Source: Lachnospiraceae bacterium
GTDB taxonomy: Bacteria > Bacillota > Clostridia > Lachnospirales > Lachnospiraceae
Direction: 5' to 3'
Assembly: GCA_003453515.1 (NCBI GenBank)
Contig: DMLD01000065.1
Location: 1-5,302, forward strand
Length of the DNA stretch: 5,302 nucleotides
Position numbers and translations under genes: made by a program. Positions 2,166 through 2,473 of the stretch are shown here, piece by piece (positions within the stretch are counted from its first letter, which is position 1; each line of letters opens with the position of its first letter). The notes under the pieces were generated by a model. The model did no database searches, had not been told where the DNA came from, and saw only the letters and a list, made by a program, of their open reading frames with translations.

Positions 2166-2325
2166 AGCGATTGCTGTGACATGATAGCGAAGATCCGGGA
2201 GGTTGCCATCGAGGCAGGATGCGCCGACTGTGTGGCGCATAAGCCGTTTGAGATGGGTTTTTCCGGGGAGTAAATGTCAAGAGGTTCGGCATGATCAGCA
2301 AACAGTGTCCGAACCGCTAAACCTG

Positions 2326-2473
2326 ACGACAAGTCACTGTACAGTAGCATAGTTTCTGCCACGAGCAGATAAACGTGTGAAAGTCCACCGTTATCGGGTA
2401 GTATGGGTAACGGCCTATATTTTTGAAACAGGTATGGACACACACGGATGAGTGTACAGTCACCGCTTGTCGT
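2326..2473 (+). ncRNA. Multibranched RNA domain closed by a 16-bp long-range helix
   Basis: The closing helix joins ACGACAAG (2326-2333) to CTTGTCGT (2466-2473), 8 bp, and after a 2/5-nt internal loop ACTGTACA (2336-2343) to TGTACAGT (2453-2460), another 8 bp. Nested inside are the hairpin TCTGC/GCAGA (2355-2359/2365-2369, 5-nt loop); the two-part helix CGTGTG/CACACG (2374-2379/2441-2446) continued by GTCCA/TGGAC (2383-2387/2435-2439); and the hairpin CCGTTA/TAACGG (2388-2393/2408-2413). Sixteen closing pairs over a ~150-nt span plus nested stems are hard to explain by chance. This is a cis-acting mRNA element or a fossil ribozyme domain rather than a free-standing RNA, as no separate promoter is seen. 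Confidence 0.65.
2388..2424 (+). terminator. Possible weak attenuator hairpin in the S10 leader
   Basis: The hairpin CCGTTA/TAACGG (2388-2393/2408-2413, 14-nt loop) is followed by CCTATATTTTTG, whose T run ends at 2424. This resembles a weak intrinsic terminator and could serve for premature termination inside the leader. The stem is short and the T run starts a few bases late, so it may be only part of the surrounding fold. Confidence 0.25.

Follow-up and report, generated by a model that had tools for sequence, protein, structure and literature searches.

The S10 operon of Escherichia coli is controlled by uL4 at both transcription and translation, as described in the available part of PMC10931766. 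In the part of PMC2965389 available to us, the rpsL leader is a predicted attenuator with a 5' terminator and the greA and rnk leaders also possess antiterminators; rpsJ does not occur in that portion of its main text. For Firmicutes, an S10 leader was predicted earlier and many Clostridia examples have been reported, which the available portion of Eckert and Weinberg's text leaves undiscussed (PMC7247131). Genes of the S10 cluster account for a large part of the ribosome, and the literature we found says little on its control in Clostridia. Our search returned no paper naming S10-Clostridia and none joining Lachnospiraceae with an S10 leader, and by title or opening of the abstract no rpsJ attenuator in Clostridia was found among the matches listed, supplements being outside the scope of the search. 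Here, we analyze a window of 5,302 nucleotides from a Lachnospiraceae bacterium whose rpsJ leader is likely a self-regulating switch with two alternative folds. In folding models, the leader RNA of the window and of many relatives, including Lachnospiraceae, is predicted to adopt either a long-range helix, P1, or a terminator-like hairpin, T. The catalogued family RF03136 is the front part only of the whole rpsJ leader. The analysis thus provides the S10 leader with a second half, two mutually exclusive folds and exact bases to mutate.

Open reading frames and Pfam assign to the window, in this order, the terminal part of an aminotransferase gene, a DUF1002 gene and an S10 operon. The part of the operon inside the window comprises rpsJ, rplC, rplD, rplW and the start of rplB, with rpsJ (S10; 2517-2840, ORF and PF00338) as the first gene. 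All features described here lie on the forward strand. A promoter-like site, TTGCAA-17-TATAAT at 2137-2165, was located by consensus scan and is solely a consensus match (10/12 positions); the leader would therefore be about 345 nt long. The DUF1002 gene upstream of the operon (1177-2112; PF06207, E = 5.9e-73) encodes a product with a signal-like N-terminus.

Relatives of the leader were collected with a DNA query spanning 2300-2516 and with R1, a covariance model of the leader's 3' part. The DNA query matched in 49 of 61 genomes, the window's own genome included, which together with the pairing kept in swap tests places the helix beyond chance. The sequence-only reading is supported in part: this is an S10-operon regulatory leader in Clostridia, with a conserved long-range helix that stays paired while its sequence varies. 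Within the window's order, R1 had matches in 137 of 196 genomes, representing 74 of 101 genera; in the class it matched 24 of 196 genomes, 7 of these belonging to the order. Two strong R1 matches were present in G206 (contigs C139 and C74), and one strong and two weak ones in G086 (contigs C9, C19 and C14), which may reflect duplication or contamination. Both searches contributed to an alignment of 164 leaders, of which 151 belong to the order and 13 to other orders. Conservation of pairing was assessed by swap test, in which the pairing of a 5' strand with its own 3' strand is compared with its pairing with the 3' strands of other leaders; the permutations ignore the tree, and the controls, which share the tree, stay near zero.

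The upstream half of the leader is formed by the S10-Clostridia leader RF03136, presumably its sensor part. It is the sole Rfam match of the window at E up to 1, covers 2182-2292 upstream of rpsJ and scores 53.7 bits, above Rfam's gathering cut-off of 35.1 bits. The sequence-only reading had recognized no known ribosomal leader in the P1 domain and had missed this catalogued one upstream of it. P1 is joined to this known leader and the leader as such is therefore not new. Across the class, RF03136 was matched in 192 of 291 genomes, in 128 of 291 above the cut-off. Among 14 control genomes it is also matched in two, those of Bacillus subtilis and Lactococcus lactis, so that the label Clostridia-specific, suggested earlier, does not hold for the RF03136 part; P1 was surveyed in Clostridia only.

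The main RF03136 hairpin, H1 (2195-2266), covaries at its base: the pairs 2195-2266, 2196-2265 and 2197-2264 each reach E = 0.00 in an R-scape-like scan of the 164 leaders, and the H1 swap test within the order yields z = -17.1. The helix H2b (2276-2327) pairs GUCA at 2276-2279 with UGAC at 2324-2327. Its pair 2279-2324 likewise reaches E = 0.00, its swap test in the order gives z = -4.1 and its covariation score beats a column-preserving tree null (p = 0.01). The Rfam register of this helix, UGUC/GACA, is 96% paired with a pairing share above the tree null (p = 0.04), and shows no covariation (score p = 0.68 against the tree null, swap z = +0.2). Rfam's last helix seems to be shifted by one base (window 2275-2292 and 2324-2331), which suggests GUCA/UGAC as a corrected helix register for this public RNA family. 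A long H2 arm probably explains why the Rfam alignment in the window stops at 2292, ahead of the strand UGACGACA. UGUC/GACA was considered as an anti-antiterminator and dropped, being without covariation whereas GUCA/UGAC covaries. H2b and P1a have just two bases in common (2326-2327), and H2b therefore also does not exclude P1. A separate observation concerns the octamer GAUCAGCA (2293-2300 in the window), which is found in 19 of 164 aligned leaders compared with 0.6 expected in shuffles. Its carriers are the window's genus and near kin (L002-L007, L009-L012, L015, L017, L019-L021, L030, L046 and L048). The octamer usually resides in the H2 arm and is found inside the P1 domain in L010 and L012, as if either arm could carry one loop.

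P1 lies between the RF03136 match and promoter-like site upstream and rpsJ downstream, and is composed of two perfectly complementary 8-bp segments, P1a (2326-2333/2466-2473) and P1b (2336-2343/2453-2460), with gaps of 2 nt and 5 nt between them. The 16-bp helix claimed from sequence is thereby confirmed in its coordinates, its two perfect segments and its 2/5 spacing. Both segments are recovered when 2320-2480 is folded to minimum energy without constraints, and a ninth pair, U2334-G2465, is added there. This fold has an energy of -56.9 kcal/mol compared with -40.1 ± 3.8 kcal/mol for 200 dinucleotide shuffles (z = -4.5), none of which (0/200) folds as low as the native sequence. P1 encloses a hairpin (2355-2359/2365-2369) and a stem, P3, formed by CGUGUG at 2374-2379 and its partner at 2441-2446, with a further arm. 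The P3 swap test gives z = -8.5 in the order, with a shifted control at +1.4; in other orders its signal does not stand out from that of the control (z = -2.4 versus -2.0). Also within P1 is the conserved block ACACACACGGAUGAG (2438-2452), whose pattern AC[AG]C[ACT]N?GG, here called ACAC-x-CGG, occurs in 72 of 77 aligned other-order leaders, one genome being counted twice. One order leader, L040, retains the T segment and the RF03136 match, but its H2 arm and the 5' strand of P1 seem to be missing, as in a natural deletion.

Pairing of P1 and T is kept as their sequences change. Pair by pair, the R-scape-like scan (220 columns, 164 leaders) finds no significant P1 or T pair within the order; at E ≤ 0.05 it detects only H1 and H2b pairs and 2319-2322, which is outside any proposed helix. 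P1 and T covariation scores in the order likewise do not beat the column-preserving tree null. This weak classical covariation is a consequence of sequence conservation in the order. The share of canonical pairs does exceed the tree null for P1a, P1b, T and the hairpin P2 (CGUAC/GUACG type), at p = 0.0025, the floor of 400 simulations. Swap tests in the order yield z = -6.8 for P1 and z = -6.6 for T, with two controls at +0.3 and -1.6, and non-redundant subsets retain the signal (T, z -5.9 to -4.5; P1, z -5.7 to -4.3). For P1 in other orders, z = -14.5 over 74 distinct strand pairs, 42 of which fall in the top decile, with accompanying controls at -0.2, -0.7 and +0.8. Reducing the other-order leaders to non-redundant sets of 55, 35 and 18 gives z of -13.7, -11.4 and -7.4 for P1 and -7.0, -5.4 and -4.4 for P2, the controls in these sets staying between -1.2 and +0.7. 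In L214, for example, P1 is formed by GCGACUUUAAGAC paired with GUCUUAAGUCGC. The strong swap tests in other orders combined with controls near zero establish P1 as a real S10-leader helix well beyond the window's order.

A direct link between the RF03136 domain and P1 was also sought. The candidate P0 would pair GUGAC at 2176-2180 with GUCAC at 2333-2337, and is 97% paired and nearly invariant. As a link excluding P1 it was rejected, with swap tests of z = -1.5 in the order and z = -1.7 (p = 0.047) in other orders, and -0.9, +0.5 and +0.8 in the non-redundant other-order sets; in folds of the window its probability never rises above 0.04. P0 is left as a candidate only.

The rpsJ Shine-Dalgarno sequence is located inside the terminator-like hairpin T. 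T (2458-2516; fold and swap test) consists of a hairpin at 2458-2510 and the U-tract UAUUUUU at 2510-2516. In the stem, AGUC, CC, CUU and CGUACU (2458-2476) pair with AGUACG, AAG, GG and GACU (2491-2510), and the 3' side of the stem leads into AUUUUU and then the start codon of rpsJ (AUG at 2517). By sequence and fold, the Shine-Dalgarno GGAGG (2501-2505) is part of the T 3' strand. T is present in the unconstrained minimum-energy fold of 2172-2516. Between C2457 and the AUG, a hairpin with a U tail is found in 151 of 151 aligned order leaders and in none of the 13 leaders of other orders. The T segment folds with z below -2 relative to shuffles in 146 of 151 order leaders and in 7 of 13 other-order leaders; these seven thus have a stable hairpin at the T position without the U-run. 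In L150, L152 and L153, a hairpin of very different sequence (CGAUUUUUC... with ...GAAAAAACG) takes the place of CGUACU/AGUACG, and a terminator-like hairpin ahead of the U-run is still formed.

Placement of the Shine-Dalgarno in the T 3' strand could also mean that control is exerted on translation alone, with T masking the Shine-Dalgarno, P1 freeing it and the U-run serving as a spacer at which polymerase does not stop. The internal loops of T, and its absence from the results of a simple terminator scan allowing only loops of 3-8, are in keeping with such an arrangement. We consider it unlikely given the behavior of the U-run. Immediately behind the stem, 150 of 151 order leaders carry six or more T among the 10 bases preceding the AUG, and masking needs no U-run. 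The same criterion identifies none of the 13 aligned other-order leaders and none of 69 further RF03136 leaders of other orders. The U-run is also specific to rpsJ, with at least six T at 144 of 144 readable starts (148 loci) and at 0 of 115 rplC starts in the same loci.

The 151 order leaders were found by queries that contain T (R1 and the DNA query), and T was therefore also searched for with a 19-base pattern over its 5' strand that includes neither the T 3' strand nor the U-run. This pattern identified at least 118 loci. Among the matches listed, all 114 loci with a readable Shine-Dalgarno and AUG are terminator-like; an S10 start is recognizable in 110 of them and four are incomplete. 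The remaining loci listed are two at locus ends, L379, with a variant Shine-Dalgarno and the same layout by eye, and L293, a Bifidobacterium locus without the T layout that looks like a chance match. Named carriers among the matches listed include Lachnospira multipara, Lacrimispora amygdalina and Fusicatenibacter saccharivorans and are mostly Lachnospiraceae. A set of 22 match-negative genomes (the 20 listed of 59 R1-negatives and two DNA-query negatives) contained S10 in 17 cases and a readable rpsJ start in 11. Three of these 11 leaders have at least six T before the AUG, one of them at a contig edge, and eight have no U-run; T is therefore widespread in the order but not universal. One order therefore carries a terminator-like element on a leader with a core common to other orders as well.

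P1 and T compete for the same bases. They have 2458-2460 (P1b 3' strand) and 2466-2468 and 2471-2473 (P1a 3' strand) in common and therefore cannot both form in full. Across 151 leaders, the difference in ensemble energy between forced T and forced P1 is -0.8 ± 3.4 kcal/mol; the gap is at most 5 kcal/mol in 132 of 151, with T favored in 86, and the window's own difference is -2.7, favoring T. In folds of growing prefixes of the window, P1 has a probability of 0.99 with the RNA end at 2474-2480, and P1a drops to 0.28 by 2500 as P2 forms. T takes over once 2507-2510 are made, its outer stem reaching 0.76-0.77 at ends 2510-2516, where half of P1b remains paired. The probability of H2b ranges from 0.04 to 0.63 in these folds. 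Exclusivity, close energies and folding order in these models are what an attenuator would need and do not amount to proof that one operates. The leader combines a stem-loop directly followed by a U-run with an exclusive, conserved helix predicted to be the antiterminator, two of the elements of an intrinsic-terminator attenuator. The helix had initially been read as closing a multibranched domain, the alternative pairing of its 3' strand with the stretch over the Shine-Dalgarno having been overlooked, and is better read as a switch arm opposed to T.

P1 might instead be a fixed element of structure or stability, with T acting as a constitutive, partial terminator or not terminating at all. 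The prediction of P1 at 0.99 until the T 3' strand is made and the missing U-run in part of the order would suit such a static leader. The pairing of T is itself kept through sequence change in the swap tests, and T competes with P1 for the same bases at close energies in most leaders, making a leader that does not switch highly improbable.

Taken as a whole, we regard it as fairly probable that the leader is an attenuator that also masks the Shine-Dalgarno, with P1 as antiterminator and control by a protein of the S10 operon, likely L4. The parts of this reading that we infer are actual termination, the connection with the sensor domain, the identity of the ligand and the direction in which control runs; L4 is suggested by analogy with E. 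coli. When the protein is scarce, P1 would persist and block T, so that RNA polymerase would read on with the Shine-Dalgarno free. In excess, the protein would bind the upstream RF03136 domain and P1 would be disfavored, allowing T to form. Transcripts would then stop just before the start codon, and those escaping would have a masked Shine-Dalgarno. A linear comparison with 23S rRNA placed one of 18 leaders (L091, 5' part) above all 30 of its own shuffles and, for the inner part of P1, none of the 18; no convincing recurrent resemblance to a 23S site emerged from this linear comparison of 18 leaders.

Clostridia that lack T also have P1 and its inner block, and P1 must therefore serve some role other than antitermination there. 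This observation bears on the opposite direction of control, an ON switch in which the P1 domain with the ACAC-x-CGG block itself contributes to the ligand-binding core and in which stabilization of P1 by the ligand prevents T. Other-order leaders lacking T keep both P1 (z = -14.5) and the block (72/77), and the swap tests revealed no RF03136 link that excludes P1, both of which agree with such a design. A protein that activates its own operon would create positive feedback, and ribosomal leaders reduce expression at protein excess according to the available part of PMC7247131; we consider the ON switch quite improbable. In its boldest form, ligand binding would stabilize P1 and turn the operon on, giving a ribosomal leader with the ligand as antiterminator, which we hold to be improbable.

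As far as our searches reach, three features are new: P1 with the ACAC-x-CGG block as the downstream half of the S10 leader, a terminator-like hairpin that embeds the Shine-Dalgarno in leaders of the window's order, and the corrected H2 register. The earlier Firmicutes S10-leader prediction is reportedly a paper from 2007, and P1 may already be described there or in supplementary material. RF03136 and the window leader share the H1 and H2 region upstream of rpsJ, as the 53.7-bit match shows, but the 81-position model ends before P1, the ACAC-x-CGG block and T, and its 3' register UGUC/GACA lacks the covariation that GUCA/UGAC displays in the aligned leaders. Attenuators of the rpsL type (PMC2965389) similarly place a predicted 5' terminator ahead of a ribosomal-protein operon; the window leader differs in that its terminator strand contains the Shine-Dalgarno. 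The E. coli S10 leader, as portrayed in the available part of PMC10931766, controls the same operon and also combines a leader terminator with translational control. The parallel in logic to the window leader is clear, as an analogy. The two differ in that RF03136 is the only Rfam family to match the window (E up to 1) and in that the Shine-Dalgarno of the window leader lies within the terminator-like hairpin itself, which ends at the AUG.
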